DNA of 64,000 bases from Microlunatus flavus. GTDB taxonomy: Bacteria > Actinomycetota > Actinomycetes > Propionibacteriales > Propionibacteriaceae. The stretch is from the NCBI RefSeq assembly GCF_900110855.1, contig NZ_FOFA01000001.1:186001-250000 (forward strand), in the 5' to 3' direction. Shown here in pieces: positions 23,351-33,198 of the stretch. Every line of letters starts with the position of its first letter. Position 1 is the first letter of the stretch. A model generated the notes under the pieces. The model was not told where the DNA came from, ran no database searches, and saw only the letters and a list, made by a program, of their open reading frames with translations. A program made the position numbers and the translations under genes.

Positions 23351-24154
23351 TCAGGCCTCGCGGCGGCGCAGCGTCAGGACGGTGACGAGGAGCGCGATGA
23401 GCACGCACGCCACCGCGGCGACCGTCCCGTCGCCGAGCCCGAGCCCCCCGCCGTGCGACGCGGGCTTGCCGCACCAGTCGGCGAGGGAGGCGCCCAGCGG
23501 GCGGGTGAGGACGTACGCGCTCCAGAAGGCGACGACCGGGTTCAGCCGCAGGAAGCGCCAGGCCAGGGCGGGGACGGCGATCGCGACCGCGAAGACGACG
23601 GCCGACGTCAGGTAGCCCAGCCCCAGCTGGTCGGCGGTGAGGTCTCCGGCCGCCGTGCCCAGCGCGAAGGTGGCCAGCACGGTCGCCCAGTAGAAGAGCT
23701 CACGGCGGCGCGTGGTGATGCTGTGCACCGAGAGCGTGCCCTCGCCGCGGTGCCAGGCGAGGAGCAGCCCGGCGACGACGAGCAGGTAGACCGCGGTCGT
23801 CACCGCGTACGGCAGCCCGACGAGGTGCACGGCGTCGGCCGCCATGGTCCCGAACACCGCCACCATGGCGACGGCCAGCCAGTAGACCGGCGTGCGGAGG
23901 CGACGGGTCCGCAGCTGCAGCCAGAGCGCGCCGGCCAGGCCGACGACCCCCACGGCCACGGCGACGACGACGTCGGAGTTCGCCAGGAAGTCCGAAAGTG
24001 CCTCCCCCATGCCCGTGGTGAGGGTCTTGACGACCCAGAACAGAACGGTCAGCGCCGGAACCTTCACGGCGAGGTCGGAGCGGGCACCCGTCGCGTCGGT
24101 GACGGCCGGGGTGTCGGCGGGGGCGGCGGCGGTGGGCACGGGGGCGGCGGTCAT
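23351..24154 (-). CDS. COG4705-like multi-pass membrane protein of unknown function
   Basis: 267 aa with about seven or eight hydrophobic segments. Two internally similar elements, VLFWVVKTLTTGMGEALSD (about 37-55) and FYWATVLATFALGTAAGD (about 153-170), suggest an internal duplication typical of COG4705 membrane proteins. No catalytic motif is seen. The first 27 residues are Ala/Pro/Thr-rich. The ATG has GAGGA upstream. About 100 nt upstream on this strand is one of five shared direct-repeat promoters, so it is probably controlled by the two-component system at 25-28 kb. Confidence 0.75.
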   Translation of the reverse strand: MTAAPVPTAAAPADTPAVTDATGARSDLAVKVPALTVLFWVVKTLTTGMGEALSDFLANSDVVVAVAVGVVGLAGALWLQLRTRRLRTPVYWLAVAMVAVFGTMAADAVHLVGLPYAVTTAVYLLVVAGLLLAWHRGEGTLSVHSITTRRRELFYWATVLATFALGTAAGDLTADQLGLGYLTSAVVFAVAIAVPALAWRFLRLNPVVAFWSAYVLTRPLGASLADWCGKPASHGGGLGLGDGTVAAVACVLIALLVTVLTLRRREA

Positions 24155-24254: not shown

Positions 24255-24288
24255 AGTGTTCGGTGCGCCCGCTGAGCCGCACCTGAAC
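24255..24288 (-). promoter_or_regulatory. Putative response-regulator box plus -10 (copy A)
   Basis: Minus strand: GTTCAG starts at 24288 and GCTCAG at 24277 (11-nt period). The hexamer AACACT at 24260-24255 begins 28 nt after the first base of the box. It lies upstream of the COG4705-like gene, inside the short gap after the FetB-like gene. Confidence 0.6.
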
Positions 24289-24295
24289 GCTCGGC

Positions 24296-25087
24296 TCAGA
24301 GCTCGACCGGCACCCCGTCCCGGGGTCGCCGCGGCCGGCGGATCGCGGCCCGCAGGTCCTCCGGCACGAGCAGGCCCCGCTCGACCAGCCAGGAACCGAC
24401 CACCACGACGACGGTCTGGGCGGCCAGCAGCCCGACCAGCACGAGCAGCTGGGCGGCGCCGGCCTGCGCGGGGCTGCCGCCGCCGAGGAGCACGCCGACG
24501 AACGCACCGGGCAGGGTCACGAGGCCGACCGTGCGGGTCTGGTCGAGCCCGGGCACGAGGGACTCCGCGCGGTGGCGGGCGACGACGAGCCGCACCGCGA
24601 CGGGCACCGGGAGGCCGAGCGCGAGGGCGCCCTCGTACGTGTCGCGCTCCTCGCGGAGGGCGGCGAACAGGCGGCGCCCGTTGAGGCTGCTGGCGGTCAT
24701 CGCGCCGCCGATGACGATGCCCGCCATCGGGACGACGGCGGCCCCGGTCCAGGGCACGGCACCCGAGGCGAAGACCACCACCAGCACCGGGACCGCACCC
24801 GAGGCCATCGCGACCAGGACCCACGGCCAGGCCCGTCCGGCGCCGATCCGGCGGGCCGAGGTGCCGACCGCGACGCCGAGCATCACCACGGCGAAGGCGA
24901 TCGAGAAGGACAGCCGGCCGAGGACGGCGACGAGGACGAGGGAGACGAGGGCCAGCTGGCCGAGCGCCCGGACGACCGCGACGGCGTCGGCCCGGGCGGT
25001 GCCCAGGCGCGCGAGCGCCGCGACGACGACCGCCAGCCCCGTCAGGACGGCGAGGGCCACGACCAGGTGCACCGACAGGCTCGTCAC
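24296..25087 (-). CDS. FetB/YbbM-family ABC transporter permease (UPF0014)
   Basis: 263 aa from GTG 25087 (GGGGA upstream); a GTG at 25114 would add nine residues. About seven transmembrane helices. The family motifs PMAGIVIGGAMTASSLN and DQTRTVGLVTLPGAFVGVLLGG are intact. FetB pairs with the ATPase FetA and is linked to iron export in E. coli, but no ATPase gene is adjacent here. The cytoplasmic tail is basic (RRPRRPRDG). Substrate and partner are therefore open. Confidence 0.8.
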   Translation of the reverse strand: MTSLSVHLVVALAVLTGLAVVVAALARLGTARADAVAVVRALGQLALVSLVLVAVLGRLSFSIAFAVVMLGVAVGTSARRIGAGRAWPWVLVAMASGAVPVLVVVFASGAVPWTGAAVVPMAGIVIGGAMTASSLNGRRLFAALREERDTYEGALALGLPVPVAVRLVVARHRAESLVPGLDQTRTVGLVTLPGAFVGVLLGGGSPAQAGAAQLLVLVGLLAAQTVVVVVGSWLVERGLLVPEDLRAAIRRPRRPRDGVPVEL

Positions 25088-25116
25088 CGGCTGGTTCCCC
25101 GGACCCGGTGGCACCG

Positions 25117-25150
25117 GCTCAGGCCCGGCTCAGCCGTCCGGTCGGACGCT
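25117..25150 (+). promoter_or_regulatory. Putative response-regulator box plus -10 (copy B)
   Basis: GCTCAG at 25117 and again at 25128 (11-nt period), then GACGCT at 25145-25150 starting 28 nt after the box begins. The hexamer ends six nt before the ATG at 25157, giving a leaderless start with the box at about -40 to -24. Confidence 0.6.
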
Positions 25151-25156
25151 GGACGG

Positions 25157-25423
25157 ATGAGCGTGCAGGCAGCGGTGCGGACGGTGAGCGACCCGACCTT
25201 CTGCGAGGTGCGGCGAGCGGCCGAGGCGCTGGTCACCGAGCTCGGCCGCCACCTCGACGCCCTGGCGGCGCTGCCCGAGGGCCCGGTCGGCCTCGTGCGG
25301 CTGGCCGACCTCAACGACCCTGTACGGCGAGCCGTGGCGCGCTGGGACCGGGCCGTGCTGGCCCACACCGGGACCTTGCCGCTGGCCGTCGACGACGGGT
25401 GGGGCGAGGACCTCTCCGACTGA
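25157..25423 (+). CDS. Small hypothetical protein
   Basis: 88 aa, soluble and acidic at the C-terminus (DDGWGEDLSD). No family is recognised. Codon third positions are strongly GC, as in neighbouring genes. The start is supported by a -10 hexamer ending six nt upstream and by a direct-repeat box shared with four other promoters nearby. It converges on the sensor kinase gene and is divergent from the FetB-like gene. It may be an accessory component of the same regulon; the function is unknown. Confidence 0.55.
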   Translation: MSVQAAVRTVSDPTFCEVRRAAEALVTELGRHLDALAALPEGPVGLVRLADLNDPVRRAVARWDRAVLAHTGTLPLAVDDGWGEDLSD

Positions 25424-25457
25424 CGACGTGCGCGGCCACCTCGCCGGCCGCCTCGCG

Positions 25458-26912
25458 TCACGCGCCTCCACCGCCGTCGGGGACGAGAGTGCCCGGACCG
25501 AGAGCGTCAGGTCCGTCGCCGACGGCTCCGCCGGCGTCGGGCAGCGGGAGGCGCACCTCGAAGCGGCACCAGCCCTCGGGGTGCTCGACGACCGCGAGCC
25601 GACCGCCCTGGGAGGCGATGCCCGCCCGCGCGATCGCGAGCCCGAGCCCGCTGCCCCCGGCGTCGCGGGAACGGCTGGCGTCGAGCCGGACGAACCGCTC
25701 GAACACCCGGTCGCGGTCGGCGGCGTCGATGGGCGGGCCGTCGTTGTCGATCCGGACGACCGCCTCGCGACCCTCCCGGACCAGCGTGAGCACGACCGTA
25801 CGGGCGGCGTGGCGGGCCGCGTTGTCGACGAGGTTCCGCAGGGGCTGCGCCACCCGGGCCGGCTCCGCGCTCACCCGGACCGCCTCCACGCGGCTCTGCA
25901 CCTCGAGGTCCGTCGTCGTCCGCAGGCGCCGCGCCTCGGTGTCCACCAGGTCGTCGAGGTCGACGTCGGCCGGGGCGGTGACGGTCTCGTGCGCGTCCAC
26001 CCGCGCCAGCGTCATCAGGTCCGCGACCAGGGCGCCGAGCCGGCCGAGCTCGGCGTTCATCGTGGCGAGCAGGCGGGCCCGCGCCTCGTCGTCGCCCGTC
26101 CTCGCCGCCAGCTCCCCTGCCGTCGTCAGCGTCGCCAGGGGGCTGCGCAGCTCGTGGCTGGCGTCGGACACGAACGTGCGCTGAGCGGTGTCGGAGGACT
26201 GCAGGCGGTCGAGCATCGCGTTCATCGTCCCGGCCAGCGCAGCGATCTCGTCCCGGGTCGGCGGCACCTCGAGCCGGGCGTCCAGCCGCCGCGCGTCGAT
26301 CTCGGCCACCGTCGCGCGGATCTGGTCGACCGAGCGCAGCGCCCGCCCGACCAGCACCCACACCGCGACGCCGACCGCGGCGAGCAGCAGCGGCGCGGCG
26401 GCCAGGAGCAGGACGGTGACGGTGCGGACGGTGTCACGCTGCACGCGGATCGGCACGGCCACCTGCACGAACCAGGTCCGGTCGGCCGACCGCAGGGCGG
26501 TGGTGACGACCTTCCACTCCCCGCCCTCGTCGAGGGTGTCGATGTCGCGCTCCACAGAGCTGTACGCGCCCACGTCCGGCCGCTCCAGGGACAGGGCCGC
26601 CGTCGCGGACCGGCGCGAGGAGCCGACCACCGTGCCCCGGTCGTCCAGGAGCAGCGTGACCGCGTCGGTCCGGCCACGCTCCCCCAGCGTCGCGGCGGTC
26701 GCCGGCACGCCGTCGGCCGCGACCTGGGAGACGACCTCCGCGGCCCGCGTGACCCCGGTCGCCTCGGCCGACTGCTCCAGCGACGTCCACAGCGCCAGCA
26801 CCAGCGCGGAACCGCCGAGCAGCAGCGCCACCAGCACCACGACGACCGCCACCAGCACCGACCGGACCCGTACGCCGGTCCGTGCGCCCAGGAGCTGCAG
26901 CCTGCGCCTCAT
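25458..26912 (-). CDS. Two-component sensor histidine kinase
   Basis: 484 aa from ATG 26912 (a GTG 12 nt upstream is an alternative). Transmembrane helix 1 at about 18-43, an extracytoplasmic sensor segment to about 150, helix 2 at about 150-175, then HAMP. The H-box FVSDASHELRSPLATL (His near 254), N-box NLVDNAARHA near 355-365 and G-box GLGLAIARAG follow. It should autophosphorylate and pass phosphate to the divergently encoded response regulator at 27210. The sensor domain has no recognised ligand motif, so the signal is unknown. Confidence 0.9.
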   Translation of the reverse strand: MRRRLQLLGARTGVRVRSVLVAVVVVLVALLLGGSALVLALWTSLEQSAEATGVTRAAEVVSQVAADGVPATAATLGERGRTDAVTLLLDDRGTVVGSSRRSATAALSLERPDVGAYSSVERDIDTLDEGGEWKVVTTALRSADRTWFVQVAVPIRVQRDTVRTVTVLLLAAAPLLLAAVGVAVWVLVGRALRSVDQIRATVAEIDARRLDARLEVPPTRDEIAALAGTMNAMLDRLQSSDTAQRTFVSDASHELRSPLATLTTAGELAARTGDDEARARLLATMNAELGRLGALVADLMTLARVDAHETVTAPADVDLDDLVDTEARRLRTTTDLEVQSRVEAVRVSAEPARVAQPLRNLVDNAARHAARTVVLTLVREGREAVVRIDNDGPPIDAADRDRVFERFVRLDASRSRDAGGSGLGLAIARAGIASQGGRLAVVEHPEGWCRFEVRLPLPDAGGAVGDGPDALGPGTLVPDGGGGA

Positions 26913-27132
26913 CGGCGTGCGCACCCCACCTCTCCCCGCCGCCACCTCGGGGCGATCGTCCCACGGCGGGCGCCACGACGCCGTCGGCACGACGCGAGCC
27001 GTCCGGACGGGGGCCCAGGGCCACGCCGGTCCGGACCTCGCGACGCGTCCTGGGGTCGGCACGCGCAGCACGGTCCTCCGCGGCGGCTGTGCCGGTCCTG
27101 AACGGCCCGCGGGCGCTGCCGGTCCGGGTCCT

Positions 27133-27166
27133 GCTCAGGTCGGGCTCAGCGGGCGCGGCGCACGAT
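27133..27166 (+). promoter_or_regulatory. Putative response-regulator box plus -10 (copy C, autoregulatory)
   Basis: GCTCAG at 27133 and at 27144, with CACGAT (27161-27166) starting 28 nt after the box begins. It lies upstream of the response regulator itself, as expected for autoregulation. The predicted transcript has a leader of about 37 nt with GGGAGGG before GTG 27210. Confidence 0.6.
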
Positions 27167-27209
27167 GCCGGACGAGCATGGCGACGGGCCTGCCGGGGAG
27201 GGCGTCGGG

Positions 27210-27884
27210 GTGAAGATCCTGCTGGTCGAGGACGAGCACCGCCTCGCCGAGGTGGTGAAGGAGGGGCTGGTCGCCGAGGGCTTCTCCGTCGACGTGGTGT
27301 CCGACGGGGTCACCGGCCTGTGGGCCGCGTCGTCGAACCCGTACGACGTCATCGTCCTCGACATCATGCTGCCCGGGCTGAACGGCTACGACGTCCTCAA
27401 GGAGCTCCGGAACCGCAAGGTGTGGGCCCCCGTGCTGATGCTCACGGCGAAGGACGGGGAGTACGACGAGACCGACGCCTTCGACCTCGGTGCCGACGAC
27501 TACCTCACCAAGCCCTTCAGCTTCATGATCCTGGTGGCCCGGCTGCGGGCGCTGATCCGGCGGGGCGCCCCGGAGCGGCCCGTCCTCCTCACCGTCGGCA
27601 GCCTCGTGCTCGACCCGTCGCGGCGCTCGGTCACGCGCCGCGGCACCGCGGTGACCCTGACGGCGCGCGAGTACGGCCTGCTGCTCTACCTGATGCGCAA
27701 CGCCGGCGACGTGCTGAGCAAGGCCCAGATCCTCGACAACGTGTGGGACTCCGCCTACGAGGGCGGCGACAACATCGTCGAGGTCTACATCGGCTACCTG
27801 CGCCGCAAGCTCGACGCGCCCTTCGGGCTCACCACCCTGCACACCCTGCGCGGCCTGGGCTACCGCCTCGACGCCGACCGCTGA
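27210..27884 (+). CDS. OmpR-family response regulator
   Basis: 224 aa, the usual length. Receiver domain 1-115 with acidic pocket Glu7-Asp8-Glu9, phospho-acceptor Asp51 in IVLDIMLPG and LTKPF near 99-103. The winged-helix domain spans about 130-222 (LTAREYGLLLYLMRN, then GLGYRL). The GTG at 27210 is chosen over ATG 27165 because it begins the conserved MKILLVEDE strand and has GGGAGGG eight nt upstream. It is divergent from its likely cognate kinase. The 11-bp direct repeats at five nearby promoters suit an OmpR-family dimer. Confidence 0.92.
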   Translation: MKILLVEDEHRLAEVVKEGLVAEGFSVDVVSDGVTGLWAASSNPYDVIVLDIMLPGLNGYDVLKELRNRKVWAPVLMLTAKDGEYDETDAFDLGADDYLTKPFSFMILVARLRALIRRGAPERPVLLTVGSLVLDPSRRSVTRRGTAVTLTAREYGLLLYLMRNAGDVLSKAQILDNVWDSAYEGGDNIVEVYIGYLRRKLDAPFGLTTLHTLRGLGYRLDADR

Positions 27885-27949
27885 GCCGGGGAGCGCACCT
27901 CCGGAGCGGGGCACACGGGCACGGCGGCGGCGCGTGCGAGCATCGCCGC

Positions 27950-28576
27950 GTGGCGCACGAGGCGGTCGGAGCGGCGTACGACACCTGGGCGGACGCGTAC
28001 GCCGAACGGTTCGGCGACGTGGACCGTGCGGCCCCGCCGGACCGGGCGCTGGTCGAGCGGTGGTGCGACGCCGCGGAGGGTCCGCTGCTGGACGCCGGCT
28101 GCGGACCCGGCCACTGGACCGCCCTCCTCGCCGCCCGCGGCCGGTCGGCGGTCGGCCTCGACCTCTCGGCACGGTTCCTGGCGCACGCCCGCGCGACGTG
28201 GCCGGGCGTCGCGTTCGTGCGCGCGTCCGCCGACGCCGTGCCGCTGCGCGACGGTTGCGTCGGGGGTGTGCTGGCCTGGTACTCGCTGATCCACCAGCCT
28301 CCGCAGGCCCTGCCGGCGACGTTCGCCGAGCTGCGGCGCGTGCTGCGCCCGGACAGCACGCTGCTGCTCGGCTTCGTGGACGGCGAGCCGGGCGCGGCGT
28401 TCGCGCACACGGTCGTGACCGCGTACGCGTGGTCGGCCGACGCGCTGGCCGACCTGCTGGCGGCGGCGGGCCTCGAGGTCGTCGAGGAGCACCACCGCCG
28501 CGACGAGGGGGTGCGTCCGCACGGCGCGCTGCTCGCGCGCGCCACCGAGGAGCCCTTGCGCGACGTCCGGTCCTAG
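27950..28576 (+). CDS. Class I SAM-dependent methyltransferase
   Basis: 208 aa from GTG 27950. Motif I LLDAGCGPGHWTALLA (about 47-62), the acidic AVGLDLSARFLAHAR strand and a VLAWYSLIH loop match small-molecule methyltransferases. The substrate is not evident. GAGCAT ends six nt before the GTG, a weak leaderless signal. It follows the response regulator after 65 nt and its stop overlaps the end of the convergent GT4 gene by 4 nt. Confidence 0.82.
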   Translation: MAHEAVGAAYDTWADAYAERFGDVDRAAPPDRALVERWCDAAEGPLLDAGCGPGHWTALLAARGRSAVGLDLSARFLAHARATWPGVAFVRASADAVPLRDGCVGGVLAWYSLIHQPPQALPATFAELRRVLRPDSTLLLGFVDGEPGAAFAHTVVTAYAWSADALADLLAAAGLEVVEEHHRRDEGVRPHGALLARATEEPLRDVRS

Positions 28577-29673
28577 CGCCGGGCCGCCGCGCCCGTGCTG
28601 ACCGCGGCGGCTGCGCCGGCCGGCAGCAGCGAGCCGTAGAGCGCGCGGTGCCGGTCGAGGACGGTCGCCCAGTCCAGGCCCTCGACCGGGCGGCGGGCCG
28701 TGCGCCGCAGCGCCTCGAGCGCACCCGGCTCCCGGACGAGGTCGACCAGCCGGTCGGCCAGCTCCTCGTCGCTGCCGACGAGGTGGCCGTCGACACCGTC
28801 GGTGACGAAGTCGGCCAGGCCCGTCCCGGCCATCCCGACCACGGGCAGCCCGGCGCAGCGGGCCTCGAGCGCGGCGATCCCGAACGACTCCTGCCGCGAC
28901 GGGGCCAGGTAGAGGTCGGCCCGCTCCAGCAGGCGCTGGATCTCGGGGCGGTCCAACCGCCCGGTCGCGGTGACCCACCCGGACAGGGCCGGCCGGGCGA
29001 TCCGGCGCCGGACCGCCGCGTCGAGCGGTCCCTCGCCGACGAGCAGGGCCCGCAGCGGCAGCTCTTCGCCGACCCGGCGCCTGACCTCCTCCAGCACCCG
29101 CAGGAGGGCGAGGGGTCGCTTGCGCGGGGCGAACCGCATCACCGAGACCAGCACCGGCGCCGGACCGGGCGTCAGCGGCGTCCGCGGGGCCCAGGCCGCC
29201 GGGTCGACCGCGTTCGGCAGCACGCCGACGGTGCGCCCGGGCAGCGCGGGGGCGAGGACGCGGGCCGCCACGGTGCTCACGGCGGTCCAGGCCGTGCCCT
29301 CCGGCACGTCGCGCAGCAGCGCCCCCAGCGCGCGACCCGGCGCGCCCTGCGGCCAGAGCGAGTGCAGGGTGACCACCGCCGGGACGCCCGCCGCCGCCGC
29401 GGCGCGGGTGCCCGCCCAGGCCAGCGGCGAGACGAGCGAGCTGTGGGCGTGCACGACGTCCACGTCGAGCCGGGCCACCAGCCGCTCGAGGTCCGCCTGC
29501 CGCCGGCCCGGGCGGTCGAGGCGGACGACGCCCTCCTCGGTGGGGCCGGCGGTCGCCGTGGCCACGGTGACGTCCTCGCCGGCCAGGGCCTGCCGGCGGG
29601 CGAGGTCGCTGACGTGCAGCTCCATACCGCCGAGCCGGGGCAGGTAGACGTCGCTGACGTGCAGGATCCTCAC
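28573..29673 (-). CDS. GT4-type glycosyltransferase
   Basis: 366 aa. Starts at a GTG overlapping the flippase stop (GTGA), so MRILHVSDVYLPRLGGME is the N-terminus. The donor-site block RQESFGIAALEARCAGLPVVGMAGTG, with the E-x7-E pair, lies near 270-295. The first half carries DVVHAHSSLVSPLAWAG. Such retaining enzymes transfer hexoses onto lipid-linked acceptors. Coupling to a UPF0104-type membrane protein suggests a glycolipid or envelope polysaccharide. Transcription probably starts at 30731 under the box D promoter. Confidence 0.86.
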   Translation of the reverse strand: MRILHVSDVYLPRLGGMELHVSDLARRQALAGEDVTVATATAGPTEEGVVRLDRPGRRQADLERLVARLDVDVVHAHSSLVSPLAWAGTRAAAAAGVPAVVTLHSLWPQGAPGRALGALLRDVPEGTAWTAVSTVAARVLAPALPGRTVGVLPNAVDPAAWAPRTPLTPGPAPVLVSVMRFAPRKRPLALLRVLEEVRRRVGEELPLRALLVGEGPLDAAVRRRIARPALSGWVTATGRLDRPEIQRLLERADLYLAPSRQESFGIAALEARCAGLPVVGMAGTGLADFVTDGVDGHLVGSDEELADRLVDLVREPGALEALRRTARRPVEGLDWATVLDRHRALYGSLLPAGAAAAVSTGAAARR

Positions 29674-30731
29674 GCGGCGCCCTCCGCGGCCGGCTCGGGC
29701 GCGAGGTCCCGGACGCCCCGGCCCCACGAGCGCCGCAACCCCCAGCCGAGCAGGACGGCCCCGCCGACCGGGACCTCCGCGGCGACGGTGAGCGCGCGGT
29801 AGAGCAGCACCGCCGCCAGTCCCGGTGCGGCCGGCAGCCCCCCGGCCAGGACGACGGCGGACAGCGCGGTCTCGACGACCCCGACCCCTCCGGGCGTCAC
29901 GGGCACGAGCGTGAGCAGCCGGTCGGTCGCGAAGAGGGCGGCCACGAGGGCGAGGCCAGGGTGGAGGCCGCAGACGCGCTGGCAGGCGGCGAGCAGGACG
30001 GCCTGGAGCAGGGCGTACGCGGTGCCGGCCGCGACGACCCGGGGCCAGGCCCGGCGCAGGAGCGTGACGCAGGAGGCACCCAGCTGCGGGAGCCGGTGCC
30101 GAAGGTCGGTGCGGAGCGGTCGCCGGACCACCCGCCCGAGGCGGGCCGCGGCCGTGTCCACCGCGCCGCCGACGGCCGTGGCCACACTCGTGCGGAGCAG
30201 CAGGAGGGCCCCGAGCAGCACGGCGCCGGCGACGCCGAGCGCCGTCGTCGCGAGCGCGCCGGGCAGCACCGCCTGCCCGGCGAGGAGCACGAGCACCGCG
30301 GCGACGGCCACCACGACGACCTTGCTCACGACGTCGAACAGATTCGTGACGACCGTGTAGGTCGCGAAGGCGGCGCGGCCGTGGCCCCAGGAGCGGACCA
30401 TCGCGTAGTTGGTGCCGATGCCCGCGGCGCCGCCGAGGGGCAGCACGTTGGCGACAGCGCTCCCGGCCAGGCTGAGGGCGAGGGCCCGGCGGACGAGGAG
30501 CCCGGGCAGGCAGGCGGCGAGACCGGTGGCGCTGGCCACCAGCCCCGCGAGCCAGAGGACGGCGAGGGCCGCGAGGTCCGGGGCGGAGACCTCACGGACG
30601 ACCTGCGCGACGCCGCTCCAGCTGCTGCCGCTCTGCCCGGGCACCCACGCGACGAGCGCCACGGCGACGCCGGCGACCCCCACCGACGCCAGGAGCCGGA
30701 GGGGGGACCGCCGGCCCTCGTGGACGCTCAT
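29670..30731 (-). CDS. Lysylphosphatidylglycerol-synthase-TM / UPF0104 family membrane protein
   Basis: 353 aa with about eight to ten hydrophobic segments. Family signatures include LPLGGAAGIGTNYAMVRSWG and the C-terminal TPGGVGVVETALSAVVLAGG with LLYRALT. The family includes flippase-like and AglD-related proteins; the soluble lysyl-transferase domain of MprF is absent. CACCAT ends seven nt before the ATG, suggesting a leaderless message, and a direct-repeat box sits at about -41 to -25. It is coupled to the downstream GT4 gene and divergent from the PIG-L deacetylase. A role in moving or presenting a lipid-linked glycan is inferred. Confidence 0.8.
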   Translation of the reverse strand: MSVHEGRRSPLRLLASVGVAGVAVALVAWVPGQSGSSWSGVAQVVREVSAPDLAALAVLWLAGLVASATGLAACLPGLLVRRALALSLAGSAVANVLPLGGAAGIGTNYAMVRSWGHGRAAFATYTVVTNLFDVVSKVVVVAVAAVLVLLAGQAVLPGALATTALGVAGAVLLGALLLLRTSVATAVGGAVDTAAARLGRVVRRPLRTDLRHRLPQLGASCVTLLRRAWPRVVAAGTAYALLQAVLLAACQRVCGLHPGLALVAALFATDRLLTLVPVTPGGVGVVETALSAVVLAGGLPAAPGLAAVLLYRALTVAAEVPVGGAVLLGWGLRRSWGRGVRDLAPEPAAEGAA

Positions 30732-30738
30732 CGAGGCG

Positions 30739-30772
30739 ATGGTGCGCAGCCGGTCCTGTGCCGAACCTGAGC
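30739..30772 (-). promoter_or_regulatory. Putative response-regulator box plus -10 (copy D)
   Basis: Minus strand: GCTCAG starts at 30772 and GCACAG at 30761. CACCAT (30744-30739) begins 28 nt after the box starts and lies seven nt before the ATG at 30731. The box also lies upstream of the divergent PIG-L gene, which has its own hexamer TAGGCT at 30786-30791. Confidence 0.6.
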
Positions 30773-30797
30773 AGCGTCGCCGACCTAGGCTGCCCCG

Positions 30798-31592
30798 GTG
30801 CCGTTCACCCTGGTGTCGTTCCACGCGCATCCCGACGACGAGGTCCTCTACACCGGCGGCACCCTGGCCCGGGCCGCGGCGGAGGGGCACCGCGTGGTCG
30901 TCGCGGTCGCCACGAACGGTTCCGCGGGCCTCGCCGCACCGCAGCACCACCGGGGCGGGCTGGCCGCGCGGCGCCTCGCCGAGCTCGAGGCGTCGGCCGC
31001 CGCCCTGGGCTGCGCGGACGTCGTGCGCCTCGACTTCGCCGACTCCGGCTACCGGACCGCGGCGCCGCCCGGGTCGTTCAGCCGGCTCCCGGTCCCGGAG
31101 GCGGCCGCGCCGCTGGTCGAGCTGCTGCGCCGCGAGCGGGCCGACGCGCTCACCGTCTACGACCCCGCGGGCGGCTACGGGCACCCCGACCACGTCCAGG
31201 TGCACGCCGTCGGGACGTACGCGGCCCGGGTCGCCGGGACCCCGCTCGTGCTGGAGGCGACGGTCGACCGGTCCCGCATCCGGCCCCTGATCCGGCTGGT
31301 CGCCGCGACGCCGGGGCTGCTGCCCGAGGTGGTGCTGGCCGACTACGACCGCAACTACAGCGGGCCCGAGGAGATCACCCACCGCGTCGACGTCCGCGCG
31401 TACGCCGACGTCAAGCGGCGGGCCATGCGCGCCCACGTCAGCCAGGCCAGCTCCGCGGGCGGGGCCCGCACCCTCTCGCTGCTGCTGCGCCTGCCAAGGC
31501 CCCTGTTCCGCCGGGTGCTCGGGACGGAGTGGTTCGTCGAGCGGGGCCGCACCGGGCCGGTCGTGGACGACGTCTTCGCCAGCCTGCGCTGA
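30798..31592 (+). CDS. PIG-L family deacetylase
   Basis: 264 aa. The zinc/catalytic motif AHPDDE lies at 10-15 and the second metal motif GHPDHVQVH near 131-139. Family enzymes remove N-acetyl groups from GlcNAc-containing glycolipids or mycothiol precursors. Lack of overall mycothiol-enzyme features and the glycosyltransferase context favour a glycan or glycolipid substrate. TAGGCT ends six nt before the GTG, so the message is probably leaderless. It shares its upstream region with the divergent flippase gene. Confidence 0.85.
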   Translation: MPFTLVSFHAHPDDEVLYTGGTLARAAAEGHRVVVAVATNGSAGLAAPQHHRGGLAARRLAELEASAAALGCADVVRLDFADSGYRTAAPPGSFSRLPVPEAAAPLVELLRRERADALTVYDPAGGYGHPDHVQVHAVGTYAARVAGTPLVLEATVDRSRIRPLIRLVAATPGLLPEVVLADYDRNYSGPEEITHRVDVRAYADVKRRAMRAHVSQASSAGGARTLSLLLRLPRPLFRRVLGTEWFVERGRTGPVVDDVFASLR

Positions 31593-31628
31593 GCCCCCGC
31601 CCGCCCGGCACCCCTCCGGCCGGGCACC

Positions 31629-31662
31629 GCTCAGGCCGGGCACAGGGGACGCGGCCGACGAT
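31629..31662 (+). promoter_or_regulatory. Putative response-regulator box plus -10 (copy E)
   Basis: GCTCAG at 31629 and GCACAG at 31640 (11-nt period), then GACGAT at 31657-31662, again 28 nt from the first base. Predicted start about 31669, leaving a short leader with GGAGG before GTG 31690. Confidence 0.6.
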
Positions 31663-31689: not shown

Positions 31690-33198
31690 GTGCTCCTGCC
31701 CGTCCGCTCGCGCTCCCGGCGCGTCGACGTCGCCTGGGTCCTGGGGCTCGCCGCGCTCGCCTTCGCGGTCCCGCTCGCGGTCGACCTGCGCAGCGGCGGG
31801 CTGCACGGGCGCATCGGCTACGACGGCTCGGTCTACTACGCCTCCGCGGTGGCCCTCGCGCACGGGGTGCTCCCCTACCGCGACTTCCTCCTGCTGCACC
31901 CGCCGGGGATCGTGCTGGCCCTGCTGCCCTTCGCCGCGCTCGGCGCCGTCGTCGGCGACCCGGACGCCCTCGCGCTGGCCCGGCTGGCCTGGTTCGCCGC
32001 GGGCGCGGTGAGCGCCGCGCTCGTCTTCGTCGTCCTGCGCCGGCGCGGGCGCTGGCCGGCGGTGCTGGGCGCGGCCGCATACGCGCTCTGCGTCCCGGCC
32101 GTGGTCAGCGAGCACACAACCTCGCTGGAGGCGGTGGGTTCGTCGTGCCTGCTCGGCGCGGTGGCCCTGCTGACCGCGGGGCGCGACCGGCGTACCGGGC
32201 CGGTCTGGCCGCTGGTGGCCGCGGGCGCGCTGGTGGGGGTGTCGACGGGGACCAAGATCTGGGGCGCCGCGGTCGTGCTCACCCTGGTCGGCTGGGCCAC
32301 GGCCCGGCTGGGCGTGCGCCGGGCGGGGCTGGTGCTCGCCGGGGCCGTCGGGACGACGGTCCTCGTCTGCCTGCCGTTCTTCGTGGCGGCCCCGGGTCCG
32401 ATGTGGCGGATGGTCGTGCTGGACCAGCTGGGCCGCCGCCGCGTGCCGGGCGGGCTGGCCCAGCGGGTGGTCGACGTCGCCGGGTGGTCGGGCCTGCACG
32501 GGATCGCGAGCACGAGGGTGCTGGCCGGCGCCGCGCTCGTCCTGGGCGCGGCGGCGCTCGTGCTGGCCGTGCGTGACCCGGTCGGCCGGCTCGCCGCGCT
32601 GCTGCTCGTGGTCACGACGGCCGTGCTGCTGGCGACCCCGCCCTGGTCGGTCGCCTACACCGGGCTCGCCGCCCCGTCGGTGGCCCTCGTCGTCGGCTCC
32701 GCGGTCGCCCGCCTCGGCGAGCGGGGCCGTCCGCTCCGGGCCGCCGCCGGGGTGCTCGTGGTCGCGGCCGTCCTGGGCTGCGCCGCGGTGTCGCTGCCGG
32801 CCCTGCACCCCGGCTCACGCTTCCCGGGCGCGTCCCTGGAGCGGGTCCTGGCGCAGGTGCCGGGCTGCGTCACCACCGACGACCCGATCGCCCTGGTCGA
32901 GACGGGCGCCCTGCGGCGCGACCTCGCCCTGCGCTGCCCGGTCGTCGTCGACCCGAGCGGCTACTCCTACGACCTCCAGCCGTCGGCGGCCCGGCACGTG
33001 AGCCGGCCCGCGAACCAGCAGTGGCAGGCGTTCCTCACCGACCACCTCGCGAGCGGCCGGCTGGCCGTGGTGGTCCGGTTCCGGACGGCGCCGGGCCTCA
33101 GCCGCGCGACCCGCCGCACGATCGGGCGCTGGCCGGTGGTGGCCACGGTGGGCGGCTACCAGGTCCGCCGCCCGACCGTGCCCCCGTCGGGGGGCTAG
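31690..33198 (+). CDS. GT-C-type membrane glycosyltransferase (GT39/GT87-like)
   Basis: 502 aa with about ten to twelve transmembrane segments. The first external loop holds GYDGSVYYASAVALAHG followed by PYRDFLLLHPPG, as in polyprenyl-phosphate-dependent mannosyl/arabinosyl-transferases, with the catalytic Asp in the YDG motif. A soluble region of about 130 residues after the last helix (LERVLAQVPGCVTTDD onward) is probably periplasmic. GTG start with GGAGG six nt upstream. It lies downstream of the fifth shared regulatory box. The lipid-linked sugar donor is unknown. Confidence 0.8.
   Translation: MLLPVRSRSRRVDVAWVLGLAALAFAVPLAVDLRSGGLHGRIGYDGSVYYASAVALAHGVLPYRDFLLLHPPGIVLALLPFAALGAVVGDPDALALARLAWFAAGAVSAALVFVVLRRRGRWPAVLGAAAYALCVPAVVSEHTTSLEAVGSSCLLGAVALLTAGRDRRTGPVWPLVAAGALVGVSTGTKIWGAAVVLTLVGWATARLGVRRAGLVLAGAVGTTVLVCLPFFVAAPGPMWRMVVLDQLGRRRVPGGLAQRVVDVAGWSGLHGIASTRVLAGAALVLGAAALVLAVRDPVGRLAALLLVVTTAVLLATPPWSVAYTGLAAPSVALVVGSAVARLGERGRPLRAAAGVLVVAAVLGCAAVSLPALHPGSRFPGASLERVLAQVPGCVTTDDPIALVETGALRRDLALRCPVVVDPSGYSYDLQPSAARHVSRPANQQWQAFLTDHLASGRLAVVVRFRTAPGLSRATRRTIGRWPVVATVGGYQVRRPTVPPSGG

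Follow-up and report, generated by a model that had tools for sequence, protein, structure and literature searches.

The response regulator PhoP of Mycobacterium tuberculosis binds 7-bp repeats as a tandem dimer with a strict 4-bp spacing, that is, with a period of 11 nucleotides (nt) (PMC4832192, available sections). For PhoP repeats that overlap the -35 element class II activation has been proposed, and at Escherichia coli PhoB promoters the Pho box stands in for the -35 element (PMC3413638, available sections). The box given for PolR of Microlunatus phosphovorus and for Streptomyces PhoP, GTTCAC-N5-GTTCAC, is likewise an actinobacterial 6-nt repeat with 11-nt period (PMC6754071, available sections). 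Here we analysed a window of 64,000 nt (the whole stretch, positions 186,001 to 250,000 of contig NZ_FOFA01000001.1) from Microlunatus flavus, in which six promoter-like sites with a direct-repeat box of 11-nt period surround a two-component system of the OmpR/PhoB type. With a probability of about 0.86, judged from sequence, each site would combine a promoter with an operator for the neighbouring two-component system, which would thus be autoregulated.

The half-sites of the window boxes read GYTCAGG / GCWCAGS. The M. tuberculosis PhoP box, TCACAGC-N4-TCACAGC, has the same architecture, an 11-nt direct repeat taken up by a tandem dimer in PhoP (PMC4832192, available sections), and the half-sites have C5 (C or T in the window), C7, A8 and G9 in common. 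The period is the same but the half-sites are not, and the window box is not the PhoP box. PhoP sites also vary in position, and the autoregulatory site is described as lying downstream of +1, unlike in the window (PMC3413638, available sections). The PolR box differs in its GTTCAC instead of GYTCAG and in its phosphate and poly-P genes, and PolR is described as DevR-like (PMC6754071, available sections). The CutR regulon of Streptomyces was rejected because its site, TAWATAAA, is unlike the window box (PMC12802291, available sections); the MtrA box of S. coelicolor was also compared (PMC5650626, available sections). Among the papers listed in the literature searches, in which logos in figures are not searchable, none was recognised as describing the window box. 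The box of MprA of M. tuberculosis is probably CTCAG-like. The original prediction had not recognised the box from any described system; it is not entirely unknown, however, since its architecture is that of the M. tuberculosis PhoP box. E. coli PhoB shares the box in place of the -35 element; the half-site of the Pho box and the stimulus of PhoB differ from those of the window system. PmrAB-type envelope-modification systems offer an analogy, with an OmpR-class regulator and GT-C and DedA-like targets; the PmrA box differs.

Six sites and their distance to the -10 hexamer

The six sites are as follows.

Site 1, 24255 to 24288, minus strand: GTTCAG-N5-GCTCAG-N11-AACACT; putative promoter of the DUF347 (COG4705-like) gene, ATG about 100 nt further down.
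Site 2, 25117 to 25150, plus strand: GCTCAG-N5-GCTCAG-N11-GACGCT; putative promoter of an orphan open reading frame (ORF), ATG 6 nt past the hexamer.
Site 3, 27133 to 27166, plus strand: GCTCAG-N5-GCTCAG-N11-CACGAT; putative promoter of the response regulator gene.
Site 4, 30739 to 30772, minus strand: GCTCAG-N5-GCACAG-N11-CACCAT; putative flippase-GT4 promoter, ATG 7 nt past the hexamer.
Site 5, 31629 to 31662, plus strand: GCTCAG-N5-GCACAG-N11-GACGAT; putative promoter of the GT-C-like gene.
Site 6, 27070 to 27103, minus strand: GTTCAG-gaccg-GCACAG-ccgccgcggag-GACCGT; faces the histidine kinase gene, back to back with site 3.

The original prediction had listed five 34-nt sites with an 11-nt period and a hexamer 28 nt from the first repeat base. 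All five are exact in the sequence, and the kinase-facing site 6 (27103 to 27070), which had been overlooked, brings the total to six. Spacers and flanks vary among the six.

To avoid circularity, boxes were searched without any -10 criterion and NANNNT was then counted at 38 offsets. The loci comprised the window, 20 loci of the same order (L055 to L074; 18 from other genomes and two around paralogues in the own genome) and named loci of Actinomycetota. At offset 11, NANNNT followed 6/6 boxes of the window, 37/41 boxes of the order loci (36/40 excluding the own genome) and 24/27 boxes in 27 named Actinomycetota loci. Every other offset had the hexamer in 0 to 4 boxes, about 2%. With a background floor of 3%, the binomial p at offset 11 was 7e-10 for the window, 4e-52 for the order loci and 2e-32 for a first set of the named Actinomycetota (23/26); related sequences are not independent, so these values are formal, and the contrast with the neighbouring offsets is still clear. 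The 11-nt distance from box to -10 is thus locked across Actinomycetota. In other phyla (14 boxes in 53 loci) the hexamer stood at offset 11 in 2 and at offset 10 in 5. A matrix of 66 sites holds little information between box and -10; its core positions were set by the search pattern and are no evidence of conservation. At 21 of the 66 sites an ATG lies at +6 or +7 past the hexamer.

The box is also rare. In the window, which has 74.5% G+C, G[CT]TCAG-N5-GC[AT]CAG matched 6 times, against a mean of 0.07 and a maximum of 1 in 60 Markov shuffles, and this box plus -10 matched 6 times against 0. With one mismatch per half-site the box alone was at chance in the same kind of shuffle (11 against a mean of 7.8 and a maximum of 14), and the contrast was restored only by adding the -10 (6 against 0.03). 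A 33-nt motif with one mismatch allowed gave 6 matches against 0.15 in dinucleotide shuffles of the window. Genomes were scanned with IUPAC patterns, mismatches allowed, and the reversed pattern as control. The motif GYTCAGGNNNGGCWCAG-N11-NANNNT, derived from the six window sites themselves, has 6 perfect matches in the 4.79-Mb assembly, all inside one 7.4-kb stretch; 0 were found at one mismatch and 6, near background, at two, and the reversed control gave 2 in all. Free of the spacer or -10 constraint, the motif matched 12 times, 6 of them in the cluster, against 0 for the control. A looser form, YTCAGN6YWCAG-N11-NANNNT, had 8 matches, namely the six cluster sites and one each on contigs 11 and 9. 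Matches are therefore few and the perfect ones confined to the cluster, so the box is no common background sequence. A genome scan was what the original prediction had called for, and the regulon idea came through it unrefuted.

The contig 9 match (G000:C9:354305, L213:1306), in which the box is followed by GATCTT at the 11-nt offset, lies 44 nt before a gene for a secreted, Rpf-like protein with G5 and transglycosylase domains. It is possibly a distal regulon member, or possibly chance.

Recurrence of the box at regulator genes and in relatives

The 250 nt preceding the regulator homologue contain a strict box in 4/5 loci with more than 80% identity, 11/18 with 60-80%, 19/27 with 50-60% and 0/2 below 50%; among random stretches from these loci the share was 1.3%. 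Upstream of the regulator it was found in 0/4 further Actinomycetota loci and in 2/53 loci of other phyla. A search free of any motif, which took all 4-letter direct repeats with a period of 7 to 22 in the 200 nt upstream of 47 of the 52 regulators (L053, L054, L121, L127 and L132 excluded), put the 11-nt repeat of TCAG (and of its complement) at the top of the ranking, with 23/47 regions; the background was 2% of 400 stretches. Just upstream, on either strand, the box was seen in named loci of Kocuria, Agreia, six Streptomyces, Herbidospora, Microtetraspora, Microbacterium, two Nonomuraea, Tessaracoccus and one metagenome-assembled genome (MAG) of Acidimicrobiia, and none was seen there in Antrihabitans, Williamsia, Pseudonocardia, Frigoribacterium and a second Acidimicrobiia MAG. 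The same position holds a box in two loci whose titles give Bryobacteraceae and Acidobacteriia (L145, L158), where the hexamer stands at other offsets. In seven loci of Herbidospora, Microtetraspora, Streptomyces and an Acidimicrobiia MAG (L111, L112, L113, L118, L120, L126, L129) the pair is preceded 10 nt upstream by a third half-site, so that such boxes may accommodate additional dimers.

Over 40 genomes the looser motif matched 120 times against 31 for the control, and box counts rose with regulator similarity (Spearman 0.65). The 15 genomes with a close regulator (at least 320 bits) gave 78 against 13, the middle 13 genomes 31 against 9, and the 12 genomes without a close regulator no excess (11 against 9). 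These counts contain 14 matches (hand count) of a separate element at a sigma-factor gene; with it removed the three classes read 69 against 13, 28 against 9 and 9 against 9. The element lies near position 1501 of L090, L093, L096 and L102 and reads YTCAGNG-N4-TTCAGGG, ending GGAATCCT, with CGTT about 18 nt on. Translation of the four loci shows, by eye, a SigB-like group-2 sigma-factor gene downstream, and one such site was counted by hand in 14/20 genomes of the genus. The element looks like another repeat box over a promoter of the SigR/SigH type, the extracytoplasmic function (ECF) form; MprA control of sigB is a similar case.

Positional counterparts were found for 5/6 window sites. A divergent box pair stands beside the regulator in four relatives (G015, G003, G011 and G019; L055 to L058). 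On the other side of the pair from the regulator, L055 to L057 have a GT4 gene, followed farther along in that direction by the kinase, and L058 has a GT-C gene; the position of site 6 is therefore conserved, the direct link to the kinase is not. Site 1 has counterparts between FetB and DUF347, at the FetB end, in G015 (L055, 5920) and G003 (L056, 14331). Boxed GT-C homologues in G015 (L055, 17197), G003 (L056, 7793) and G019 (L058, 10396) match site 5, and boxes between PIG-L and flippase genes in G024 (L066) and G036 (L068) match site 4. For site 2 and its orphan ORF no counterpart was found in L055 to L074.

Relatives thus also have boxes before regulator, GT-C and flippase genes. Genes behind boxes were picked mechanically, and 30 proteins were then chosen for Pfam, 9 of which had no family. 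The others included GT4 (L055), GT2 (L057), VTT/DedA-like (L055, L066), phosphoesterase (L058, L068, L216), PAP2 (L106, L219), PMT_2 GT-C (L220), DUF347 (L214), ApbE (L218), MspA (L214), DUF1345 (L222), NAGPA (L056), putative esterase (L072), PepSY (L118, L120) and DUF2092 (L131) proteins. The L220 gene of G003, a GT-C paralogue 48% identical to the window GT-C, carries box and -10 with its start at +5 after the hexamer; its distance of about 0.5 Mb to the regulator speaks for action in trans. In G024, a 140-aa ORF with its own box (L216:7045-7464), perhaps a shortened second copy of the regulator, is divergent from a phosphoesterase gene that is also boxed.

Genes of the cluster and the two-component system

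The genes around the six sites are listed below.

DUF347 membrane protein with four repeats, 23351 to 24154, minus strand: target of site 1.
FetB/UPF0014 permease, 24296 to 25114, minus strand: neighbour without a box of its own.
88-aa orphan ORF, 25157 to 25423, plus strand: target of site 2; no family, single copy in the genome.
Histidine kinase, 25458 to 26912, minus strand: HAMP, HisKA and HATPase_c; likely start ATG 26912.
Response regulator, 27210 to 27884, plus strand: Response_reg and Trans_reg_C, OmpR/PhoB class; GTG start 27210.
GT4 glycosyltransferase, 28573 to 29676, minus strand: probably transcribed from site 4, behind the flippase gene.
LPG_synthase_TM flippase-like membrane protein, 29670 to 30731, minus strand: target of site 4.
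PIG-L family deacetylase, 30798 to 31592, plus strand: divergent from site 4.
GT-C-like polytopic glycosyltransferase, 31690 to 33198, plus strand: target of site 5.

A methyltransferase-like ORF (27950-28576) lies between the regulator and GT4 genes. In L055, FetB lies downstream of GT4 and kinase in the same direction. No match to the orphan ORF was found in loci L055-L074. Most target genes are those of the original prediction (DUF347, orphan, OmpR-type regulator, flippase-GT4 facing PIG-L). The GT-C assignment comes through homologues only: the window protein has no family match, and among its homologues that of L220 matches PMT_2 and that of L055 matches GT87 at a score below the cut-off.

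The box bears on start codons as well. Starts at 27165 (regulator), 27071 (kinase) and ATG 31661 overlap their own hexamers and are therefore unusable from these promoters; judged by the sequence, 27210, 26912 and 31690 (GT-C-like) are likely the better starts. The orphan (25157, +6) and flippase (30731, +7) transcripts would be leaderless. A -10-like TAGGCT of its own (30786-30791) precedes PIG-L, whose GTG follows at +6, and in two relatives the gene is preceded by GATCCT, again with GTG at +6. The distance from this hexamer to the box is unequal among the three species, which places PIG-L outside the box geometry.

All five Pfam models of regulator and kinase exceeded the gathering score, as expected of an OmpR/PhoB-type two-component system, and Asp8, Glu9, Asp51 and Lys101 are invariant among 18 aligned regulators. 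In an alignment with M. tuberculosis PhoP, the recognition helix NIVEVYIGYLRRK falls opposite NVVESYVSYLRRK. In the structure of PhoP with DNA, bases are contacted by Asn212, Val213, Glu215, Ser216, Tyr217 and Tyr220 (PMC4832192, available sections). Four of these six are kept (Asn212, Glu215, Tyr217 and Tyr220), and Val213 is replaced by Ile and Ser216 by Val. Among solved regulators PhoP does not stand out as the closest, as the regulator scored 168.3 bits with PhoP, 168.9 with RegX3 and 170 with 1kgs and showed no preference.

Neither protein reached a curated cut-off among the best 25 of 98 and the best 25 of 69 NCBIfam models. For both the best match was the CztR/SilR/CopR heavy-metal family (regulator, TIGR01387, 223.3 against a cut-off of 279.2 bits; kinase, TIGR01386, 182.9 against 292.55 bits), to which the regulator is not assigned at this score, and among the named targets no metal-efflux pump appeared. 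The regulator scored 158.3 bits against a cut-off of 330 with PmrA (NF007928), which was also rejected, and 175.9 against 296.2 with PhoB; the CseB and MtrA models remained far under their cut-offs. From sequence, the regulator would work like PhoP and PhoB; these scores do not place it as an orthologue of either.

Proposed mechanism and alternative explanations

In the autoregulated regulon that we favour, the kinase (25458-26912) would phosphorylate the regulator (27210-27884) on an envelope signal. Two regulator molecules would bind the half-sites 11 nt apart, head to tail, and the bound dimer would substitute for the -35 element and recruit RNA polymerase to a minimal NANNNT -10, 11 nt downstream. 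Regulator and kinase would switch themselves on through the divergent, back-to-back boxes of sites 3 and 6. The DUF347, orphan, flippase-GT4 and GT-C genes would be activated too, for the handling of lipid-linked glycans or of the envelope, and two of the six transcripts would begin at the ATG. We infer from the sequence that the regulator binds the box, that it activates rather than represses, and the signal and envelope function. Boxes are present in the promoters of both regulator and kinase, as autoregulation calls for, and the direct-repeat box at a fixed short distance before the -10, replacing the -35 element, has the class II form. The locked distance is what a class II mechanism of the PhoP/PhoB type predicts. 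The original prediction of an autoregulated envelope-glycolipid regulon gains from the fixed -10 spacing, from the recurrence of the box before the orthologous regulator and from the lack of excess where a close orthologue is missing; the label envelope-glycolipid fits most targets but neither DUF347 nor the orphan.

Several observations weigh against this regulon. The own genome has two further box-plus-hexamer sites beyond the cluster, at a paralogous regulator and ahead of the Rpf-like gene. The strict box within 250 nt is missing at 18/52 regulator homologues and at all four added Actinomycetota loci. The box opposite the regulator in relatives precedes GT4 or GT-C, not the kinase. A phylum-wide scan matched 105/246 genomes, for which no enrichment over the control is claimed. 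The classes of regulator similarity among the 40 genomes were defined afterwards, and the relatives are samples that are not independent. Finally, a paralogue 70% identical to the regulator might bind the same sites.

The sites could instead be repressor operators, or activation and repression could be mixed, with PIG-L, for example, repressed. In favour of this, the box is reversed with respect to PIG-L, whose own -10-like hexamer is on the opposite strand, 13 nt past the box; in three species such a hexamer is followed by GTG at +6, and its distance to the box varies. Repression is nevertheless rather unlikely, since an 11-nt offset locked in the absence of any other conserved element suits class II activation and a repressor needs no fixed phase. 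We give slightly less weight to the idea that the paralogous OmpR-type regulator (G000:C11:90712) mainly reads the box, or that both regulators do, and regard it as improbable. The paralogue has most of the recognition helix in common (NVVEIYVGYLRRK) and a box-like pair of its own, CTCAGTCTGACCACAG and CACAGCGTGCGCACAG, at G000:C11:90563-90712 (L069:9596-9713). The sites at the paralogue have another spacer flavour, however, and the six cluster sites surround the local system; in G003 the cluster (L056) and the paralogue locus (L072) likewise differ in flavour.

An alternative sigma factor, with the repeats as its -35 element, would account for the constant distance between box and -10. The distances from the half-site ends to the -10 are 22 and 11 nt, neither of them the usual -35 to -10 spacing of 16-19 nt, and such a factor would explain neither the repeat nor why it is linked to the regulator gene, which makes this reading very improbable. 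That the sites arose by chance or by local copying of a promoter segment, as the clustering of every perfect site of the genome might suggest, is hardly credible in view of the shuffle tests, the unequal spacers and flanks, the offset test across species and the recurrence of the geometry at other genes and in other genera.

The window system would then be of an ordinary, autoregulated OmpR/PhoB type with an unusually clean promoter code across genera and an interesting set of envelope genes. Tentatively, and with rather less than even confidence, the box and its 11-nt phase may be the code of a large, apparently undescribed clade of actinobacterial two-component systems, which in this lineage would govern the lipid-carrier side of the envelope like an actinobacterial PmrAB, often with leaderless messages; the targets considered for this were GT-C and GT4/GT2 transferases, flippase, DedA-like, PAP2 and DUF347 proteins. 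To our knowledge, many actinomycete two-component systems are without known targets. With a locked distance from box to -10, targets, transcription starts and true start codons become readable from sequence alone, and at this locus the box argues against the mechanical starts 27165, 27071 and 31661. Membership in the regulon would lend functional context to the DUF347 and orphan genes, and an envelope role would become directly testable.

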